From: Antiquaquibacter metalliresistens
GTDB lineage: Bacteria > Actinomycetota > Actinomycetes > Actinomycetales > Microbacteriaceae
Direction of reading: 5' to 3'
DNA length: 54,549 nucleotides
Assembly: GCF_029211225.1 (NCBI RefSeq)
Contig: NZ_JARGEM010000009.1
Span: forward strand, 1 to 54,549
The notes beneath the pieces were generated by a model, which saw only the letters and a program-made list of their open reading frames with translations, did no database searches and had not been told where the DNA came from. Positions 45,847 to 54,549 of this stretch are shown here, one piece after another (position 1 is the first letter of the stretch; each line of letters begins with the position of its first letter). Both the position numbers and the translations under genes were made by a program.

Positions 45847-46010
45847 GCTCTTCCCAGATGAGGGTGTAGGTCGGCCGGGCGCGTCGGTCCGCAGATAGAC
45901 GTCGAGGTCTCCCGACGACGGAGATTCCTACGCCATCCGTCCGAAAGACCTCGACGTGTCCGACGCTACCCCGCCGGCCGGCTTCGGCCGCCCTGACCTG
46001 ACCGCCTTCG
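45847..46010 (+). mobile_element. Solo left end of an ISL3-family element
   Basis: This 164-bp stretch repeats, with only a few differences, the sequence at 53878-54041 that begins the ISL3 element at the right edge of the window. It includes the terminal GCTCTTCCCAGATGAGGG, the non-coding leader, and the first ~20 codons of the transposase from a GTG (SDATPPAGFGRPDLTAF). After base 46010 the match stops abruptly. The rest of the transposase is missing here, so it is a remnant. Bases 45702-45846 and 46011-46239 hold no clear gene. Confidence 0.85.
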
Positions 46011-46239
46011 CGGCTCATCCCAGTCGACCCTGATCGGGTCTGCTGATCCTCTCGACGAGAACGCAGCGACATCACAGCCACCCAACCCCGACCGTCCGGG
46101 AAGCCGGGACACGTCACATGACCTGTGCTGCGGGCGTGTCGAGTGGGTAGTCCAGGGGCGACGCAGGAGCGTCGACGCGACGTGCTGAGAGGTGGTTCCA
46201 GTCGAGCGCTAGGACACCGGCTACAGGCATGGCGATAGG
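46011..46239. other. Gene-poor stretch right of the ISL3 remnant
   Basis: Between the remnant and the GlxA-type regulator no conserved frame, tRNA or repeat is evident. The GC content is slightly lower than in the backbone. It may hold debris from the deletion that left the solo IS end. Confidence 0.4.
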
Positions 46240-47181
46240 TCAGGAACGGCGTCGCTCCATGCGCAGGAGGGAGCGCAGAGTCTCGGCGTTCGCGTAGCCG
46301 ACCCGTAGCGCGATCTCGGCGGAGGTGAGGTCCGTGGTTGCTGAGAGGTGTCGAGCTCGTTCGGTGCGAAGCCGTTGGACGAAGCCGAGCGGAGTGAGGT
46401 TGAGCGCCGCACGGACTCGTCGTTCGAGGGTGCGCCGGCTGGTGCCGAGCGACTGCGCGACGAAGGCGACGTTGAACGGTTCGTCCAGGCGGGCGCGCAC
46501 GAAGCGTTCGAACTCGACGACGATCGGGTCCTCGTGCCGGAGATGTTCGTAGGCGACGAAAGCCGCCTGCGACGGGCGCTCGTCGATGATGAGGAGCTTG
46601 GCGACATGTTGGGCCAGGTCGGGGCTGATCGATCGCACGAGTGAGAGCGCGAGGTCGATGTGGGCGAACGCGGCGCCGGCGGTGACGAGGTTCCCGTCGA
46701 CCACGACCATGGTGTCGAGATCGAGGGCGACGGTCGGATAGCGCTTCCGGAACTCCGGTCCCAGGAACCAGCTGGTCGTCGCCCTCCGATGATGCATCCG
46801 TCCGGTCTCGGCGACAGCGAACACGCCGGTGCACGCCGCGGCGATCCGGGTGGTCGCCTCGTCGAGGCGCCCGAGCGAGGCGATGACCGAACGAGCATCT
46901 CGGCTCTGGAGGGCGTCGTTGGTAGCGGCGGCCGTGAGGGTTCCAAGCGCAGGGACGACGACCACGTCGAACTCTCCGGACTCCGGCAGCGGGTGGTCCA
47001 CCGACAGGGTCATCGATGCCGTCGTGGTCACTCGCCGTTTCGGTCCGAGGATGGCGAGTTCGATCGGGTCGATCCGCGGGTCGACATCGCCGCGGGCTCC
47101 GTCGGCCACCCGCACGATGTCGATGACCGACGCGATAGCCGAACCGAGGCAGCCGTCGATCGCGATCAGTCCGATACGCAT
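46240..47181 (-). CDS. GlxA family transcriptional regulator (DJ-1/PfpI domain + AraC HTH)
   Basis: A 313-residue regulator with an N-terminal DJ-1/PfpI-like domain (RIGLIAIDGCLGSAIASVIDIVRVAD...FDVVVVPALGTL...IAAACTGVFAVAETG with the elbow Cys). The C-terminal AraC HTH pair reads FNVAFVAQSLGTSRRTLERRVRAALNLTPLGFVQRLRTERARHLSATTDLTSAEIALRVGYANAETLRSLL. Start ATG at 47179-47181. Divergent from an ABM monooxygenase gene across about 107 bp, so it likely controls it. GlxA-type regulators often respond to small quaternary or aromatic compounds; the effector here is unknown. Confidence 0.88.
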   Translation of the reverse strand: MRIGLIAIDGCLGSAIASVIDIVRVADGARGDVDPRIDPIELAILGPKRRVTTTASMTLSVDHPLPESGEFDVVVVPALGTLTAAATNDALQSRDARSVIASLGRLDEATTRIAAACTGVFAVAETGRMHHRRATTSWFLGPEFRKRYPTVALDLDTMVVVDGNLVTAGAAFAHIDLALSLVRSISPDLAQHVAKLLIIDERPSQAAFVAYEHLRHEDPIVVEFERFVRARLDEPFNVAFVAQSLGTSRRTLERRVRAALNLTPLGFVQRLRTERARHLSATTDLTSAEIALRVGYANAETLRSLLRMERRRS

Positions 47182-47288
47182 GACGCTAATAATAGCAATA
47201 CTGCCGTATACGCCACTCCCCACCGGCCCTTGCTCGTCATACGCTGAACTCGTCCCACGAAGAACCCCGACGTCAAGGAGAGTCCCTC

Positions 47289-47600
47289 ATGTCCACACCC
47301 GCATCACTTCCGTATGCCTTCGTCGCCAAGATCGTCGCGGCCGATGGACAGCACGACGCGGTCGCCGATCTGCTCGCCGGCGCTGTCGCACTCGCCAACG
47401 AAGAAGTAGGAACGATTGTCTGGTTCGCGGTCAGGACCCACGCCGACACCTTCTGGATCTTCGATGCATTCCCCGACGAAGCCGCTCGCGACGCCCACGC
47501 CAACGGCGCCATCGTCGCAGCCCTGATGGCCAACCAGCACCTCCTCGGCGCAGCACCCGAGATCCTGGCGGCCGACGTCCTCGCGTCCAAGCTCCCGTAG
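47289..47600 (+). CDS. Antibiotic biosynthesis monooxygenase (ABM) domain protein
   Basis: A 103-residue ABM-fold protein: FVAKIVAADGQHDAVADLLAGAVALANEEVGTIVWFAVRTHADTFWIFDAFPDEAARDAHANGAIVAALMANQHLL. Such proteins are cofactor-free monooxygenases or quinol oxidases, or simply binding proteins. The F.IFD.F.DEAAR.AH motif is characteristic. Shine-Dalgarno AAGGAGAG lies upstream of ATG 47289. Divergent from the GlxA-type regulator. Confidence 0.82.
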   Translation: MSTPASLPYAFVAKIVAADGQHDAVADLLAGAVALANEEVGTIVWFAVRTHADTFWIFDAFPDEAARDAHANGAIVAALMANQHLLGAAPEILAADVLASKLP

Positions 47601-47819
47601 TCCGCCAACGCACGAGACGATCGCGCCCCGCCGAGCCGTCGCCAGGTCGCGATGCAACGCCACGCTGCGTTGCCGAGCGGTGCGAGGCCTATCGGCACAC
47701 GGACAGGATGCCGGCCGCGAGCGCTCAGCCGGCGAGGGGTCCGTCGCAGAGGAGAGCGACGTCGGTGTCGGGCAGAGCCGTGAGGCCAGCGCATCGCGCG
47801 ACCACCAGAACGGTTCGCC

Positions 47820-47857
47820 GGAGCCGCCTGTCGGAATCGAACCGACGACCTAATCAC
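47820..47857 (-). pseudogene. 3' fragment of a tRNA-Thr-like gene (possible att site)
   Basis: On the minus strand the segment reads TTAGGTC, then a perfect T-arm GTCGGTTCGATTCCGAC, then AGGCGGCTCC, which fits the 3' half of actinobacterial tRNA-Thr(CGU) from the variable loop to the discriminator. Upstream of it no anticodon arm fits: the preceding bases do not give U33 or a matching stem, so this is only a tRNA 3' end. Duplicated tRNA 3' ends are typical attachment sites of integrated elements. Confidence 0.6.
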
Positions 47858-47923
47858 GTCGGCTTTGCGTCTATCGCTTGATGCGCCCACTGGGCGAACG
47901 AGCCGCTGACCTGCGCAAACGCC
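47858..47923. other. Junction between tRNA fragment and IS3-type remnant
   Basis: Short non-coding run with no clear feature. Together with 47601-47819 (no gene recognised) it forms the seam between the ABM gene and the IS3 remnant. Confidence 0.35.
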
Positions 47924-48100
47924 GGGGCCTTGGCCCTTGATCGTGGACACGGTGTCGGTTCGGCTATGCCGCTTCCGCGAGCGTAGCGGAGCGTGCGGCT
48001 TCGTAGGCGTTCGGGCTGATGTTGCCGATCGCGGAGTGGCGCCGGCGAGTGTTGTAGCGGTTCGCCCACCGGAACACGGCCCGGTAGGCGGTGGCCTGGT
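47924..48100. repeat. 177-bp direct repeat, IS3-type end, left copy
   Basis: Matches 49217-49393 with one visible difference (GCGAGCGTAGCGG versus GCGAGCCTAGCGG). It starts GGGGCCTTGGCCCT and contains GATCGTGGACACGGTGTC, which looks like the terminal inverted repeat region of the element, followed by the C-terminal codons of the IS3-type transposase on the minus strand. Confidence 0.9.
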
Positions 48101-48330
48101 CCGGGAACGCTGACCGGCCGGCGAGGAGTTCGCGCTTGAGCGTGGCGTTGAAGCTTTCCGCGAGTGAGTTGTCGGCACTCGTGCCGACCGCGCCCGTGGA
48201 CTGGGTCACGCCCAGCTGCTCGCAGAGCGCGGCGTAGGCCTTCGAGGTGTAGACGCTGCCGTGGTCGGAGTGGAAGATCGCGCCGACCAGCGACCCGCGG
48301 TCGCGGTGCGACCGGTGACGGACGTGAGGC
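47964..48330 (-). pseudogene. IS3-family transposase, C-terminal fragment
   Basis: About 120 residues of an integrase-core transposase. They include FHSDHGSVYTSKAYAALCEQLGV, SADNSLAESFNATLKRELL and RYNTRRRHSAIGNISPNAYE, i.e. the second Asp and the final Glu of the DDE triad and the YN..RRHSAIG..SP motif. The N-terminal helix-turn-helix and first catalytic Asp are missing. The frame start (SAGTVPHVRHRSHRD) looks like a splice to non-IS DNA, so the fragment was cut at about 48330. Confidence 0.85.
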
Positions 48331-48377
48331 ACGGTGCCAGCTGACACCGTGCCTCCCGTCCGTCGTGGCCACCTCGT

Positions 48378-49136
48378 CTAAATCGCGAGGTACCCGCCGT
48401 CGACGGCGAACTGCGCGCCGGTCGCGAAGGCGGCCGCGTCGGAACCGAGCCACGCGACCATCTCGGCGATGTCGTGCGGCGTGCCGAGTCGGCCGATCGG
48501 GTGCTTCGTCAGCAGCGCGTCCTTGAAGCCGGGGTAGGTCTCCTCCAGCGCGTCTATCATTGGCGTCTGGATCACCCCGGGCAGCACTGCGTTCACGCGG
48601 ATGCCTTTGTCGGAGTACTCCACCGCGGCGGCTCGGGTGAGGCCGATGACGCCGTGCTTCGACGTGACGTAGGCGGACTGGTGGGCGATGGCGACCTGCC
48701 CGAGGGACGAGGCGGTGTTGATGATGGATCCGCCGCCCTGCGCCAGCATCTGCGGGATCTCGGCCTTCATGCTGATGAACACTCCGGTGAGGTTGACGGC
48801 GATCACCTTGTCGAACTGCTCCACCGTGACGTCGGCGAGGTCGGGGCCGGTGAGCTCGATGCCGGCGTTGTTGTGCGCGATGTCGAGTCGGCCGTAGCGG
48901 TCCACCGCGGCCTGGACCACGTGCTGCATCGACGCGAGGTCGGTCACGTCCGCCCGGACGAACGCCACGGCGTCTCCGCCGTCGATGTACTCGAGCGTCC
49001 CGTTGCCGGCATCCTCGGACAGGTCGGCGACGACGACCCGTGCGCCGTGGTCGACGAGGACCTTCGCGGTCTCGCGCCCGATCCCTCCGCCACCACCGGT
49101 GACGAGTGCGACCTTGCCATCGAGCGAGTTTGACAT
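48378..49136 (-). CDS. SDR family dehydrogenase between IS3-type repeats
   Basis: A 252-residue classical SDR. Cofactor site ALVTGGGGGIGRETAKVL, Asp after beta2 (VVVADLSED) favouring NAD, NNAG as AHNNAGIEL, and catalytic Ser/Tyr/Lys in INTASSLGQVAIAHQSAYVTSKHGVIGLTRAA. The C-terminal WLGSDAAAFATGAQFAVDGGYLAI is intact. It resembles cyclic-alcohol or dihydrodiol dehydrogenases of degradation clusters, but substrate cannot be fixed. Start ATG at 49134-49136. The gene lies exactly between the two IS3-type direct repeats, on the same strand as the downstream catabolic operon. Confidence 0.9.
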   Translation of the reverse strand: MSNSLDGKVALVTGGGGGIGRETAKVLVDHGARVVVADLSEDAGNGTLEYIDGGDAVAFVRADVTDLASMQHVVQAAVDRYGRLDIAHNNAGIELTGPDLADVTVEQFDKVIAVNLTGVFISMKAEIPQMLAQGGGSIINTASSLGQVAIAHQSAYVTSKHGVIGLTRAAAVEYSDKGIRVNAVLPGVIQTPMIDALEETYPGFKDALLTKHPIGRLGTPHDIAEMVAWLGSDAAAFATGAQFAVDGGYLAI

Positions 49137-49216
49137 TGTGTGCTTCTTTCTCTCAGGGAGCGGCGTCGGTCGGCGCCGCTCGTTCAGTGCGGGAGCTGCG
49201 ACGCGGTGTCGGCTGT

Positions 49217-49393
49217 GGGGCCTTGGCCCTTGATCGTGGACACGGTGTCGGTTCGGCTATGCCGCTTCCGCGAGCCTAGCGGAGCGTGCGGCTTCGTAGG
49301 CGTTCGGGCTGATGTTGCCGATCGCGGAGTGGCGCCGGCGAGTGTTGTAGCGGTTCGCCCACCGGAACACGGCCCGGTAGGCGGTGGCCTGGT
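49217..49393. repeat. 177-bp direct repeat, IS3-type end, right copy
   Basis: Second copy of the repeat at 47924. It carries the last ~45 codons of the same IS3-type transposase (AVFRWANRYNTRRRHSAIG..., minus strand) and nothing more. It ends nine bases before the stop of the PucR-type regulator. Confidence 0.9.
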
Positions 49394-49401
49394 GGGCGTG
49401 A

Positions 49402-50787
49402 CTACTTGCTCGTGTGCGGCATGTCCATCTCTGTGGGACGGCTCGCACCGAGGATGTCCGTCGCAAGCAATGCGGTATGGAGTGGACTGAGATCCGTGCC
49501 AAGGTCTCGGCCGAGGATCTCTTCTGCGCGCCGGAGCCGGTAACTCACGGTGTTCTTCGATACGTGAAGCCGACGTGCAGCTGCGTGTTGGCTGCGATTG
49601 ACATTGAGGTACTCCAGCATCGTGCTGCGCAGGTCGGTCTCGCGCCCACCGGCACCGAGGAGACCGCCGAGCTGAACCTCCAGGAATCGTTGCAGACGCT
49701 CGGGCCGGGCGGCGAGCTCTGCAACAGCCCCATATCGGTCATAGGGAAGGATTCGGCCGAGGTTCCGCCACCCTGCCATCATGGAGACTCGTTGCAAAGC
49801 TCGTGCCTCGTCATGACTGGCGATAAACCCGGCTGTTCCCCTCCCCGGGAGGCCGACGGCCAGCGTCCATCCGTTGCACTGAGTCGGCGGCTCCAGGTGG
49901 AGATCGTCAGCAGTGCGTACGCTGCCCCACGCCCAGAGCACGTTTGGTGCGATCATCACCTTGAATATTTGATCGCATCCCATGCTTTCGAGAGCCTCCA
50001 TGGTCGCCGCCTCAAGCTTGCTGGGCTCTCGCCGTTTGCTGAATGCGATGGCCGCTACATGGATGCGGTCGAGTGGGTATCGGGTGACCTGCTCGAACCG
50101 TTCCGGTCGCCCGCGCCCGCTCAACAGGGATGCGAGGACTCCCGACTCTGTTTCGTGGAGGAACCGTACGGGGTCGTCCGTGGCCGGTTGCATGTCCGCG
50201 ATGGCCTCGGCGAGTTGATTGTGGGTGCTGACGACCTTGCTTACAAGCGCCCGCATGATCGTGCCCTGTTCGCCGGGTGAAACACGCCGTTCACACTCGT
50301 GAAGGAGCGCCTCGGTGACCCCGGCCTGCCCGTGATTGAGGGCACGAAGCACAGCGGCCAGGGTCGCGCCCTCATTCAGCGCCCCCTGCGCCAATTGCAG
50401 CAGAACCGGTCGCATGAAGCGACCGAGGCCGGGGTCCACGAGTCGGAGGAGGGTGTCCAAGAACAGCGCTTCCGTCGTCACTTGGACCGTCATGCCCGAC
50501 GGGGCGAGAGAGGGATCGGTACTGACGATCAGGTCGACAACGCTCGCAGCCTTCGAAGCAGCCCATTGCACGGGTCCGGGTCCAAGGTGTTCACGTGCGA
50601 CTTCATGCGCGTTCTCGGGCAACTCGCTCGATGCACTGTCCCGTGAGCTAAGGTCCAGTACCCAGGCGAACGGCTGCGACGCGTCACTCAGAAGACTGTG
50701 ACTGGGCTGAACCTGACTCGGAGGCAACGAATCGGTCCGCTTCATCCCTTGATCGTACTCCCGACCGCCATCCACGGTCCCGGTCAT
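49402..50787 (-). CDS. PucR-type transcriptional regulator of the catabolic operon
   Basis: A 461-residue regulator ending in a PucR helix-turn-helix: LRSTMLEYLNVNRSQHAAARRLHVSKNTVSYRLRRAEEILGRDLGTDLSPLHTALLATDIL. An N-terminal RsbRD-like helical region (VQVTTEALFLDTLLRLVDPGLGRFMRPVLLQ...ALNHGQAGVTEALLHECERRV) is followed by a GGDEF-like linker domain. ATG at 50785-50787 overlaps the cupin stop (ATGA), so it is the last gene of the operon; an internal ATG at 50745 is an alternative. PucR regulators of this type often activate aromatic or polyol catabolic genes. Confidence 0.85.
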   Translation of the reverse strand: MTGTVDGGREYDQGMKRTDSLPPSQVQPSHSLLSDASQPFAWVLDLSSRDSASSELPENAHEVAREHLGPGPVQWAASKAASVVDLIVSTDPSLAPSGMTVQVTTEALFLDTLLRLVDPGLGRFMRPVLLQLAQGALNEGATLAAVLRALNHGQAGVTEALLHECERRVSPGEQGTIMRALVSKVVSTHNQLAEAIADMQPATDDPVRFLHETESGVLASLLSGRGRPERFEQVTRYPLDRIHVAAIAFSKRREPSKLEAATMEALESMGCDQIFKVMIAPNVLWAWGSVRTADDLHLEPPTQCNGWTLAVGLPGRGTAGFIASHDEARALQRVSMMAGWRNLGRILPYDRYGAVAELAARPERLQRFLEVQLGGLLGAGGRETDLRSTMLEYLNVNRSQHAAARRLHVSKNTVSYRLRRAEEILGRDLGTDLSPLHTALLATDILGASRPTEMDMPHTSK

Positions 50788-51290
50788 CTATCTTTGGCGC
50801 CGAACTCGTCCGCGAAGCTGACGCTGCCGCGGCTTTCGCGACGGCCGGCATCAAGCGTGTTCAGCATCCGGGAGTTCTCGATGATGATCATGTGCACGTC
50901 CTGCGAATTGGCATAGTGTCGATGCCAGATCCACGGCGGCGTGAAGACGAAGTCGCCCTTCTTCCACTCGACGACCTGGTCTCCGATCTCCGACCATCCG
51001 CTTCCGTCTGAGACGTAGTGAACCGACTCGTGGACGTGCCGCTGCAGGTCTGTCGCAGTGTCTGCGGGGATCATCTGGAGGATGAACTCGACCGTCTTCA
51101 TCGGCAGGTGACGGAGCAGGCCGAGGTGGGATGGATTGTCGGTCGATCCAGTCAGCCAGTACGCGTCCTCCGAGTGGGTGACGAGATTCGGTTCGATGAC
51201 GTGCTGGTCGTCTCGATGGTGCATGCGGTCCAGTTCCTGCATGAATTCATGCAGTCCCTCCTCGCTCAGCTTCTCGTTCTTCTTGTCCAT
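50784..51290 (-). CDS. Cupin domain protein, putative dioxygenase-like
   Basis: A 168-residue single cupin. Metal motif one is HVHESVHYVSDGSGWSEIGD (H-x-H...E-like spacing), and motif two is GDFVFTPPWIWHRHYA, so both His-rich metal motifs are present. This pattern occurs in gentisate/1-hydroxy-2-naphthoate-type dioxygenases as well as in simple binding cupins. The protein is about half the length of a gentisate dioxygenase (about 340), so the enzyme assignment is open. Good Shine-Dalgarno AGAGGAAAC before ATG. In the same operon as the aldolase and transporter, so it may act on the same aromatic pathway. Confidence 0.85.
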   Translation of the reverse strand: MDKKNEKLSEEGLHEFMQELDRMHHRDDQHVIEPNLVTHSEDAYWLTGSTDNPSHLGLLRHLPMKTVEFILQMIPADTATDLQRHVHESVHYVSDGSGWSEIGDQVVEWKKGDFVFTPPWIWHRHYANSQDVHMIIIENSRMLNTLDAGRRESRGSVSFADEFGAKDR

Positions 51291-51333
51291 GATCCGTTTC
51301 CTCTTTCCTGAAGGCTGTAGAAAGCTGCTTGAG

Positions 51334-52665
51334 TCAATCGACCGGCAACTCGCCCGACCTAAAGGTCTCTCGCGTCAGGACTGTGGCGATCAAGGAGACC
51401 AGCGCGAGTGCCCCGATGTAGATGGCGACCGGCCAAACAGTGCCGGTGGCGGCGAGCAGCGCGGTGGCGATCAGGGGCGTGAAGCCTCCCGCGAGCATCG
51501 ACGTGAGCTGAACTCCGAGGGAGACGCCGCTGAGCCGTACCCGTGTTGGGAAGAGCTCGGCGAAGAATGCGCCCACCGGTGAGCTGAGAGGCGCGTGACC
51601 CAAGCCCATGGCGAGGATCAGCGCCAGGTAGACCAGAGGCATGGATGTCGTGTTCAACAGCATGAAGAACGGGAAGGCGAACACCAGCAGGAACGCAGCC
51701 CCGAAGATCATCACGGGGCGGCGTCCCACTCGGTCAGACAGTGCGCCCCAGAGTGGAGCGGAGAAAATCTCTACGACGGCGGCAACAAGAACAGCGTTCA
51801 AGATATCGGCCCGCGCAATGCCTAGGGACTGACTTCCGTAGGAAACCGAGAACGTCGCGATGAGGAAAAACGCCGCGGTCTCGCCGGACTTCATCCCGAT
51901 CACCAGCAGAATCTGTCGCCAGTAGCTTCGAATCACCACGATCATCGGTGCGCGCGCGATGCGGTTCTGACTCTTGACGGCCTCGAACACGCTGGTCTCC
52001 GGCACTCCCAATCGTACTGCCAGGCCGATTCCGACCAGCACCAGGCTGATCAGGAATGGCACTCGCCAGCCCCAAGAGAGGAAGGCATCCTCGTCGAGCG
52101 CTCCCGCGAACGCGCCGAAGATGAGAGTCGCAAGAACAAGTCCGCCAGCCATGCCCACCGCTGGCCATGCGCCCAGGAACCCGCGTCGTGTGGAGCGTTG
52201 ACCGCCGGATTCTGCTGCCATGACGAAAGCCCCACCTTGCTCGCCGCCCATTGCGACTCCCTGGAGGAGGCGCAGGACGACCAGAAGGATCGGGGCCCAC
52301 AGGCCGATCGACTGATAGGTCGGCAGCAATCCGATCACAGTCGAGAAGACGCCCATCCCCATCATCGTGATGATGAGCACCCGCTTGCGGCCGATTCGGT
52401 CACCGAGGTTGCCGAAGATCACGCCGCCGAGAGGCCGGGCGACGAAGCCCACGCCGAAAGTCGCCAGCGATGCCAATGTGCCGATAATGGGGTCTACCTG
52501 CGGGAAGAACAAGGGGCCGAATACAAGAGCGGCCGCGGTTCCGTACAGGACGAAGTCGTACATCTCCATAGCGGTGCCAACCGCCGTAGCGGCGATCGTG
52601 CGCGCAGTCCTTCGTGGAACTGCTGCTGGTTCTGAGGAGACCAGAACCGACTCATCTGTCGTCAC
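51334..52665 (-). CDS. MHS family MFS transporter
   Basis: A 443-residue member of the metabolite:H+ symporter family with 12 hydrophobic helices. Family signs: TIAATAVGTAMEMYDFVLYG, the loop LGDRIGRKRVLIITMMGMG, LLQGVAMGGEQGGAFVMAAE, and the second-half ALSDRVGRRPVMIFGA. MHS members import dicarboxylates, aromatic acids, shikimate or betaine. GTG at 52663-52665 with AAAGGAAG six bases upstream is chosen; an ATG at 52695 is weaker. Its place between the aldolase and cupin suggests it imports the pathway substrate. Confidence 0.92.
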   Translation of the reverse strand: MTTDESVLVSSEPAAVPRRTARTIAATAVGTAMEMYDFVLYGTAAALVFGPLFFPQVDPIIGTLASLATFGVGFVARPLGGVIFGNLGDRIGRKRVLIITMMGMGVFSTVIGLLPTYQSIGLWAPILLVVLRLLQGVAMGGEQGGAFVMAAESGGQRSTRRGFLGAWPAVGMAGGLVLATLIFGAFAGALDEDAFLSWGWRVPFLISLVLVGIGLAVRLGVPETSVFEAVKSQNRIARAPMIVVIRSYWRQILLVIGMKSGETAAFFLIATFSVSYGSQSLGIARADILNAVLVAAVVEIFSAPLWGALSDRVGRRPVMIFGAAFLLVFAFPFFMLLNTTSMPLVYLALILAMGLGHAPLSSPVGAFFAELFPTRVRLSGVSLGVQLTSMLAGGFTPLIATALLAATGTVWPVAIYIGALALVSLIATVLTRETFRSGELPVD

Positions 52666-52779
52666 TTGGAGCTTCCTTTCGTGATGAGCGGGCATCGTCG
52701 CCCGGCTCGTATCGGGATGTGCTGAGGGAATTCGCGTGTGGGCGAAGTGAATCGCACAGCCACGCGCGTCGGAGCGGCG

Positions 52780-53769
52780 TTAGCTGGCCGACCTGTCTTC
52801 GGCCCGGGTCGTGTAGCTACGACGCAACTCGGCCCACCGGCGACCCGCCTCGGTGGCGCCGTCGATGTACGACTGGGGAGCCGACTGGTAGGGCGGGCGG
52901 GCCGGGCCCGGGTCGATGACACCGGCTGCGGCGATCCGCGCCTTGTCGAGGGGGATGTTGTACCTCGAGAAGCTCGAGAAGTCCCCCTCCGGCATGAGCG
53001 TCGAGTAGGTCCGCTTCATGTCCTGGGCGATCGCCTCAGCGGCGATCCAATCGGAGGAGGCCATCGCCTCGCGCAACCGCACGAGCGGCTCGGTGCCGCA
53101 TGCGGTGCTGGGGGTCCAGCAAGCAGCGGTTCGCTCACCGGCGACTCGATGAGCATCGAGCCAGTCGGCATCCATCGGGAGCAGTCGGATCTCGTCACCA
53201 CAGGCCTCGGCATCATCCGCATATTGGTCGCCAAGGAATGTGTACTTCGCACCGATGAGGGTGGGAATCGTTGCAAGCCTCGCGTACAGTTCCGGGGAGA
53301 TCTTGCCTTTGAACGCCGCGGGGTTGTCGTACAAGATGACCGGGACATCAGGCAGTGCGTCCGCGACATCGGAGTAGAAGCGAACGATCGAGTCGTCGTC
53401 CATTTCACACCACATCGGTCGTCCGAGGAACAAGCCGTCGACTCCGAGGTCCACAAGCACACGGGCACGGCGGATCGTGTCTCGAGTGTTCAGGGTGGTC
53501 GCGCCGGCGAAGACCGGCGTCTTGCCGCTCTCGGACACCACAGCCGTCATGAAAGTGACGACTTCGTCCTCAGTGAGCGTCGCGCCTTCGCCAAAAGTAC
53601 CGAGGGTCATGATGGCGTCGACGACCGGAGCCACATCGCGGATCATCGAGATGGTCACGTCCACCTCGACCGTGTTGGTCTCGTCCCAGCGCCCGGCATC
53701 GGCTGTTGCAGGAGTCGGGACGATTCCGAGAACGCCGACCAAGTCCCGAGCCGTGTACATCTGCGCCAA
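52780..53769 (-). CDS. NahE/PhdJ-type hydratase-aldolase (DHDPS/NAL superfamily)
   Basis: About 329 residues. It matches trans-o-hydroxybenzylidenepyruvate hydratase-aldolase (NahE) in block order: PTPATADAGRWDETNTVEVD, LGTFGEGATLTEDE, ALNTRDTIRRARVLVDLG, GRPMWCEMDDDSIVRFYSD, LYDNPAAFK, and the C-terminal SFSRYNIPLDKARIAAAG. The Schiff-base lysine is in GAKYTFLGD and the assisting Tyr in ILYDNP. NahE and PhdJ cleave substituted benzalpyruvates to an aromatic aldehyde and pyruvate in naphthalene or phenanthrene breakdown. TTG at 53767-53769 (five bases after AAGGAGG) is preferred; ATG at 53758-53760 is the alternative. First gene of the four-gene operon. Confidence 0.85.
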   Translation of the reverse strand: MAQMYTARDLVGVLGIVPTPATADAGRWDETNTVEVDVTISMIRDVAPVVDAIMTLGTFGEGATLTEDEVVTFMTAVVSESGKTPVFAGATTLNTRDTIRRARVLVDLGVDGLFLGRPMWCEMDDDSIVRFYSDVADALPDVPVILYDNPAAFKGKISPELYARLATIPTLIGAKYTFLGDQYADDAEACGDEIRLLPMDADWLDAHRVAGERTAACWTPSTACGTEPLVRLREAMASSDWIAAEAIAQDMKRTYSTLMPEGDFSSFSRYNIPLDKARIAAAGVIDPGPARPPYQSAPQSYIDGATEAGRRWAELRRSYTTRAEDRSAS

Positions 53770-53877
53770 GTTATCCTCCTTGATAATGAACGTGCCGATG
53801 CGGATGATGGCGTCCGCTGGGCGCAAACATCGTCGCATGCCGGCGATGCTCGATTCTTGGTCCCGCAGACCAAACTT

Positions 53878-54549
53878 GCTCTTCCCAGATGAGGGTGTAG
53901 GTCGGCCGGGAGCGTCGGTCCGCAGATAGACGTCGAGGTCTCCCGACGACGGAGGTTCCTACGCCATCCATCCGAAAGACCTCGACGTGACCGACGCTAC
54001 CCCGCCGGCCGGCTTCGGCCGCCCTGACCTGACCGCCTTCGCTCGACTCGACGGCCTCGGTCTGAGCGTGACCGGACAACGACTTGAACCGGATCGTGCG
54101 GTCCTCGCGTGCCGCGTGGTGGAACCAGATCAGTGGTGCCGACGGTGCGGCAGCGAAGGCGCTGCTCGTGACACCGTGATCCGGCGGTTGGCCCACGAGC
54201 CGCTGGGCTGGCGACCGACCGTGCTGGAAGTTGTAGTGCGCCGCTACCGCTGTGCCGACTGCGGACACGTGTGGCGCCAAGACACCAGCGCCGCGGCGGA
54301 GCCACGCGCGAAGCTCTCGCGCACCGGGCTGCGGTGGGCGCTGGAAGGGATCGTGGTCGCACACCTCACCGTCGCACGTGTCGCCGAGGGACTCGGGGTC
54401 GCGTGGGACACCGCCAACAACGCGGTCCTGGCTGAAGGCAAGCGGCTGCTGATCAACGACCCCACGCGGTTCGAGGGCGTGAAGGTCATTGGCGTCGATG
54501 AGCACGTCTGGCGCCACACCAGGCGTGGCGACAAGTACGTCACCGTGAT
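53878..54549 (+). mobile_element. ISL3-family insertion sequence, left part (runs off window)
   Basis: The element begins at the terminal sequence GCTCTTCCCAGATGAGGG. The transposase starts at GTG 53987 and stays open to the edge. Its first 164 bp also occur alone at 45847. The right end is outside the window. Confidence 0.85.
53987..54549 (+). CDS. ISL3-family transposase, N-terminal part
   Basis: 187 residues are visible. An N-terminal zinc-ribbon-like segment has two CxxC pairs (QWCRRCGSEG and RCADCGHVW), a motif of ISL3 transposases. A helix-turn-helix follows (LTVARVAEGLGVAWDTANNAVLAEGKRLL), then the first DDE Asp in VKVIGVDEHVWRHTRRG. GTG at 53987 is the natural start; the same start and next ~20 codons are in the solo copy at 45847. 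Truncated only by the window end; its right end and further DDE residues lie beyond. Confidence 0.9.
   Translation, partial: MTDATPPAGFGRPDLTAFARLDGLGLSVTGQRLEPDRAVLACRVVEPDQWCRRCGSEGAARDTVIRRLAHEPLGWRPTVLEVVVRRYRCADCGHVWRQDTSAAAEPRAKLSRTGLRWALEGIVVAHLTVARVAEGLGVAWDTANNAVLAEGKRLLINDPTRFEGVKVIGVDEHVWRHTRRGDKYVTV

Follow-up and report, generated by a model that had tools for sequence, protein, structure and literature searches.

A four-gene cassette around a NahE-type aldolase in Antiquaquibacter metalliresistens: a candidate module for import and cleavage of aromatic 2-oxo acids

The window analysed here is the whole of contig NZ_JARGEM010000009.1 of Antiquaquibacter metalliresistens (54,549 bases), from a genome of 3.07 Mb with a completeness of 97.7%. 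Its minus strand carries, from 53769 to 49402, four intact open reading frames (ORFs) in one direction, for a NahE/PhdJ-type aldolase, a transporter resembling metabolite:H+ symporters (MHS-like), a cupin and a PucR-type regulator (Table 1). These genes are a real conserved unit, and a rare one. The best reading, to which we give a probability of about 0.5, is that of a self-contained catabolic cassette that imports a ready-made aromatic 2-oxo acid and cleaves it; we infer the substrate, the direction, the operator function and the role of the cupin. A shortened pathway of this kind had been proposed in an earlier note on this DNA. The results partly support that proposal and sharpen it: the aldolase lies on the NahE rather than the PhdJ side of its family, the cassette is shared between genera and has a single candidate operator, and a likely sister clade shows a parallel arrangement with BenE transporters.

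Layout, conservation and rarity of the cassette

The minus-strand operon described in the earlier note holds, and its coordinates are right, because the TTG start of the aldolase gene and its AAGGAGG motif are kept in genomes G224 and G281, from two other genera of the family (Microbacteriaceae), while a later in-frame ATG at 53760 is kept in neither. Gaps of 84 and 43 bases separate the aldolase from the transporter gene and the transporter from the cupin gene, and the cupin and regulator genes overlap by ATGA, a 4-nt overlap found also in the ORF coordinates of G224 and G281. All four proteins have Pfam matches above the cut-offs, namely DHDPS (66.4 bits), Sugar_tr (96.2), Cupin_2 (39.4) and HTH_30 (51.2, against a cut-off of 27). 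The last, a C-terminal helix-turn-helix (HTH), is the sole match of the regulator, the Pfam scan giving none to an N-terminal PucR domain. The transporter is called MHS-like because it misses the cut-off of the MHS model TIGR00883 (410.4 against 443.45 bits), although this is its best-scoring model.

Table 1. Coordinates of the cassette, its surroundings and the BenE-linked modules of relatives (window positions unless a locus is named).
Feature	Position	Strand	Remarks
Aldolase, NahE/PhdJ-type, class I	52780-53769	-	329 aa, from TTG 53769
MHS-like transporter, major facilitator superfamily (MFS)	51334-52695	-	453 aa
Single-domain cupin	50784-51290	-	168 aa; best solved matches gentisate/salicylate 1,2-dioxygenases
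Regulator, PucR-type C-terminal HTH (HTH_30)	49402-50787	-	461 aa; ATGA overlap with cupin gene
Palindrome TTGGTC-N5-GACCAA, candidate operator	53857-53873		87 bases before aldolase start
ISL3-family element (ISPfr2-like)	53878-54549	+	runs off contig end; transposase ORF 53987-54547 incomplete here
Direct repeat of ISL3 end, 165 bases	45847-46011	+	97.6% to 53878-54042; bounds 7.9 kb of accessory DNA
IS3-type remnant, 177 bases	49217-49393		99.4% direct repeat of 47924-48100
Second IS3-type repeat copy	47924-48100		pair of copies brackets SDR gene 48378-49136
Aldolase + BenE + GntR/FCD modules	L040 9989-13228; L041 9953-13094; L043 2733-5726		
Aldolase + BenE + GntR/FCD modules	L044 9050-12298; L048 8720-12274; L051 9127-12276		

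In G224 and G281 the same four genes stand in the same order, with protein identities of 76-87% to the window (aldolase 78-85%, transporter 85-86%, cupin 84-87%, regulator 76-80%). All 12 pairwise dN/dS values (four genes, three pairs) lie between 0.05 and 0.32 at a dS of 0.33-2.11, a sign that each of the four genes is under purifying selection. Between the aldolase and transporter genes of G281 stands an additional transposase-type ORF (HTH_32 and rve in the piece scanned). In a further genome from a different genus, G321, the first 100 aldolase residues are 100% identical, up to the contig edge. No match to the transporter was found there at E 1e-60, and its cassette may therefore be incomplete or unbinned.

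The rarity of the cassette emerges from samples at several ranks. Two samples of the family, one of 299 genomes (at least 85 genera, own genome included) and a larger, overlapping draw of 398, both gave a full-length aldolase in two other genomes and a partial one in a third, G321; the larger also gave one relative at 38% identity (G015). The genus sample (27 genomes, own included) gave two others, with only 38% relatives, the order sample (396) one other, with a partial match of 36%, and the phylum sample (396) five others, at 36-45%. A scan of 84,980 species genomes, a list from which the window's own genome may be missing and in which G281 and G321 were not recognised, gave one aldolase match above 56%, in the metagenome-assembled genome (MAG) BP8.bin68, with the match position as in G224. 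The 38% gene of the window's genus, seen at loci L126 (G011) and L127 (G015), is a different member of the NahE family.

The palindrome upstream of the aldolase gene is a predicted operator, which the PucR-type regulator may bind. A whole-genome pattern search found it once in each of the four genomes, each time before the aldolase gene, at a distance of 87 (window), 87 (G224), 98 (G281) and 87 (G321) bases from the start. A control pattern had 0, 0, 1 and 0 sites in the own genome (G000), G224, G281 and G321, and none of 100 shuffles of the window carried the palindrome. In G281 it is kept though the flanking sequence does not align with the window. Because these same sites served to derive the pattern and homology links three of the four flanks, the independent weight lies in G281 and in the absence of the pattern elsewhere.

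The aldolase and its relatives

Hydratase-aldolases of the NahE/PhdJ type are marked by a Schiff-base lysine, a tyrosine and a GxxGE motif. NahE is the trans-o-hydroxybenzylidenepyruvate hydratase-aldolase of naphthalene breakdown, and PhdJ the 2'-carboxybenzalpyruvate hydratase-aldolase of the phenanthrene pathway. The window aldolase keeps the catalytic residues (GTFGE54-58, Tyr144 and Lys172) as well as Trp215, with G54-E58, Y144 and K172 aligning to NahE 64-68, Y155 and K183, and is homologous over its full length to NahE of NAH7 (43% identity) and to its Rhodococcus counterparts (46%). Among aldolases of solved structure, phmmer ranks PhdJ first (297 bits, the best PDB score), followed by NahE/HBPA (267-270 bits), against 55 bits for the best DHDPS. 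An AlphaFold model (pLDDT 92) gives TMq values of 0.92-0.94 to NahE/PhdJ (0.92-0.93 to NahE/HBPA) against 0.73-0.78 to the listed DHDPS/NAL chains. These bit scores and TMq values rule out membership in the non-aromatic DHDPS/KDG enzymes, the grouping that the earlier note had named as speaking against its claim, and its family assignment is borne out by sequence, fold and tree.

Within the family, the aldolase sides with NahE. The careful tree was built from 45 rows chosen out of 101, leaving out long-branch PhdG-like rows, most duplicates and a distant outgroup. In it, a branch with support 100/99 splits the PhdJ, bicupin-linked side from the NahE side, and the window aldolase lies on the latter, as do the Rhodococcus NarC-type rows; NarC for these and PhdG for the long-branch rows are presumably the fitting names, which the annotation lacks, the NarC-type genes being annotated only as dihydrodipicolinate synthase family. 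Because of this placement the window aldolase is not a PhdJ, despite the higher phmmer score. The pair of residues that sets specificity is reportedly, in the structure work of LeVieux, Asn281/Glu285 in NahE and Ser278/Asp282 in PhdJ. The window is mixed, with Asn268 at NahE Asn281 (PhdJ Ser278) and Asp272 at NahE Glu285 (Asp as in PhdJ Asp282). Over the 101 rows (96 different) the pairs are N/E 28, S/G 24, N/A 16, S/D 15, Q/W 7, N/D 6 (one a duplicate, the window being of this class), S/A 3 and N/Q 1, with one outgroup gap. From the residues and the tree, a PhdJ-like (carboxybenzalpyruvate) substrate appears less likely. Massilia sp. WG5 offers a side observation on the family: its large-plasmid aldolase copy matches in one piece, and a second copy on its small plasmid (L016) matches in two, with stop codons in the translated stretch.

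The likely sister group of the window clade consists of six aldolases with 48-56% identity, from Paradesulfitobacterium, an Alicyclobacillaceae MAG, a Spirochaetales MAG, Treponema, Sphaerochaeta and Coprothermobacter. The group joins the window clade with a support of 95 in the 101-row tree and 91/94 in the 45-row tree. Its hosts belong to Bacillota, Spirochaetota and Coprothermobacterota, and some are anaerobes of fermentative physiology. At all six loci the aldolase gene is directly followed, on its own strand, by one for a BenE-family transporter, with a GntR/FCD regulator nearby (four of these transporters and three of the regulators were examined with Pfam, the remaining ones being matched by tblastn). 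These modules resemble the cassette in joining a transporter and a regulator to the aldolase, with no match to a ring-hydroxylating dioxygenase (RHD), but their transporters and regulators come from families unrelated to those of the cassette, a cupin match is absent (0/6), and the residue pair is N/E instead of N/D. We found no published description of transporter-linked hydratase-aldolases or BenE modules, though several of the queries were unspecific.

A survey of loci places both arrangements among the relatives. These were picked with two peptide patterns (NahE of NAH7 lacks the first as aligned), and 80 of 99 were kept, with flanks ending at contig ends; three pairs of loci come each from one strain or MAG (OFTM178, MAG 6 and LB 501T). 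Matches to RHD occur in the fetched flanks of 12 of the 13 S/D, 16 of the 23 S/G, 12 of the 15 other N/E and one of the three S/A loci. None was seen at the six sister loci, the cassette locus (0/1), the 16 N/A loci, the two Streptomyces N/D loci or the N/Q locus (0/1). At 13/13 S/D and 19/23 S/G loci the aldolase has a gentisate-type bicupin match in its vicinity, a partner that the cassette lacks. The N/A (Asn/Ala) class forms a clade in Alphaproteobacteria (L094, L106, L112 and 13 further loci), and the three examined have ABC transporter genes close by; L094 also has an amidase there, and L112 a GntR regulator. The Streptomyces loci, L050 and L055, combine an N/D aldolase with an aldehyde dehydrogenase, a gentisate-type bicupin and a VOC-type match.

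The proposed import and cleavage, and its rivals

In the favoured reading, an aromatic 2-oxo acid from outside the cell would enter through the transporter; the likeliest candidate is a benzylidenepyruvate with an ortho-hydroxy group or a similar substituent, or the hydrate of such a compound. The aldolase would form a Schiff base through Lys172, hydrate the double bond if needed and release pyruvate and an aryl aldehyde. The cupin may then act on the aryl product in an O2-dependent reaction, or serve in an accessory step, and the PucR-type regulator would control the operon by way of the palindrome. The simplest account is that a ready-made 2-oxo acid is taken up and cleaved, because the cassette and the BenE modules share a transporter, a regulator and an aldolase without nearby ring-opening machinery. 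In this the cassette differs from the NahE and NarC-type systems, as it has its own transporter and PucR-type regulator and no adjoining ring dioxygenase. Indeed, PF00848, the alpha subunit of ring-hydroxylating dioxygenases, has no match in the own genome, G224, G281 or G321 (completeness of the last three 88, 100 and 94%); for this family the absence stated in the earlier note holds across the genome, no search having been aimed at extradiol or gentisate-type dioxygenases or at the isomerase outside the cassette region. PF00775, of intradiol dioxygenases, matches in G281 and G321 and not in the own genome or G224. The earlier shortened pathway thus gains from the aldolase type, the lack of PF00848, a conserved unit joined to insertion sequences (ISs) and the independent arrangement of the likely sister clade, while its carboxybenzalpyruvate option becomes less likely.

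Several points weigh against this reading. PMC8482765 names His205 and Phe269 as pocket residues of NahE/HBPA, which are Met196 and Met256 in the window aldolase, and describes the enzyme as making 4-hydroxy-2-oxo acids from many non-aromatic aldehydes in vitro. Because NahE-type enzymes accept such aldehydes too, an aromatic substrate is only suggested, by the residues that the pocket has kept, by the families of the transporters and by the company of the cupin. The substrate of the transporter cannot be read from the sequence; its best matches on plasmids have 47-49% identity, and the contexts of the three examined are mixed, one lying near ring dioxygenase genes and one being without annotation. 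The four genes include no aldehyde dehydrogenase. A promoter scan found no sigma-70-like promoter on the strand of the operon (both sites are on the plus strand), and a terminator scan lists the palindrome as a weak 6-pair stem on the plus strand (one site, with 2.3 expected from shuffles). The support for the sister group is good but not starred in the 45-row tree. Finally, we know of no arylidene-pyruvate that is an abundant external nutrient.

If the cupin acted first, the four genes would make up a complete three-step pathway: a hydroxy-aryl carboxylate such as a hydroxynaphthoate would be imported, its ring cleaved by the cupin in the manner of gentisate/salicylate dioxygenases, and the resulting arylidene-pyruvate split by the aldolase. 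The best matches of the cupin by sequence and fold are indeed gentisate and salicylate 1,2-dioxygenases, and 5-nitrosalicylate 1,2-dioxygenase, of similar size (208 residues), is second by fold, though weak by sequence (E 0.0038); the model itself is moderate (pLDDT 71). The bicupins near PhdJ-side aldolases and the one transporter relative near ring dioxygenase genes point the same way. However, in an ungapped alignment Gln83 stands at one position that we take to be a metal-ligand histidine of the gentisate type, the His cluster being kept among relatives. Those relatives (43-58% identity, at Rhodococcus, Amycolatopsis, Mycolicibacterium, Pseudonocardia, Pseudarthrobacter and Thermomicrobium loci) occur with HpaB, VOC, SDR, RHD or pca genes, the close ones in clusters that already hold VOC or other ring-cleavage genes. 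Moreover, the sister modules have no cupin match, and the tree puts the window aldolase with NahE and not with the bicupin-linked PhdJ side. A cupin-first route seems improbable.

We also consider it improbable that a NahE-family 4-hydroxy-2-oxo acid aldolase was recruited for an aliphatic or sugar-derived acid, taken up by the MHS-like transporter. The range of aldehydes accepted by NahE/HBPA, the two methionines in the pocket and the presence of sister genes in fermentative anaerobes would suit such a substrate. However, the aromatic end of the pocket retains Trp215 and Asn268/Asp272, the MHS and BenE families both have known aromatic-acid members, and in all four annotated plasmid regions examined, among the stronger matches, the cupin relatives lie among aromatic-catabolism genes. 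Far less probable still is that the cassette is a piece broken off a former naphthalene or phenanthrene pathway and kept only through IS carriage. Its ends, 5-9 bases from IS elements in the window, and the lack of PF00848 fit this view, but the four genes are kept in G224 and G281, where neither the ISL3 nor the IS3-type repeat was found in 39-40 kb around the cassette, and the low dN/dS at such dS and the palindrome, kept despite the diverged flank of G281, argue against it.

A wider proposal, tentative and on balance doubtful, is that NahE-type hydratase-aldolases have repeatedly moved out of aerobic ring-cleavage pathways to become the core of small transporter-coupled uptake-and-cleave modules (MHS-like with PucR here, BenE with GntR in anaerobes, perhaps ABC in Alphaproteobacteria), which live on arylidene-pyruvates, or on related 2-oxo acids, released by other organisms. 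If the import reading is true, the cassette would point to a cross-feeding niche on aromatic keto acids. Liang et al. (2019a), as cited in PMC10338962, proposed that the hydratase-aldolase gene pahE marks bacteria degrading polycyclic aromatic hydrocarbons better than ring dioxygenase genes do, and a clade of the same family in transporter modules, in part from anaerobes, could give false positives in pahE-based surveys. With four genes and a single predicted operator, the question is readily testable in a laboratory host.

Mobile surroundings

The IS-rich surroundings reported in the earlier note were found again: the ISL3 element starts 5 bases from the palindrome, and the IS3-type repeat ends 9 bases from the stop codon of the regulator gene. 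The name ISPfr2 follows the annotation of matching plasmids, and the family scan was made on the identical copy of the element in G321. The last 1,089 bases of the window (53461-54549), including the junction of aldolase and IS, are identical in G321, whose junction contig also carries a ParB-like ORF, with ParB_N scoring below its cut-off, and a gene for a primase. The cassette has apparently spread between related bacteria with IS elements.

Other explanations of its movement were rejected. A tRNA-Arg gene lies about 550 bases downstream of the cassette in G224; a tRNA-bounded integration was dismissed, as no exact repeat of at least 12 bases is shared between the two cassette ends there. 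A transposon of its own was dismissed as well, since no exact end repeats of at least 12 bases occur in G224 or G281; the window has one 12-base inverted match (48939/53984), away from the cassette ends. The SDR gene was rejected as a fifth member, the SDR near the G281 cassette being only 33% identical and G224 having no match in 40 kb. Matches of the regulator on plasmids have 26-44% identity.

The stretch 45847-54549 as a whole is a mosaic of mobile pieces. Plasmids of Rhodococcus, Tsukamurella, Dietzia and others carry counterparts of an AraC-type regulator gene and ABM genes (46.2-47.6 kb) and of the ISL3 parts; the matching pieces have a mean identity of about 97-98% and cover 28% of the 8.3 kb query.

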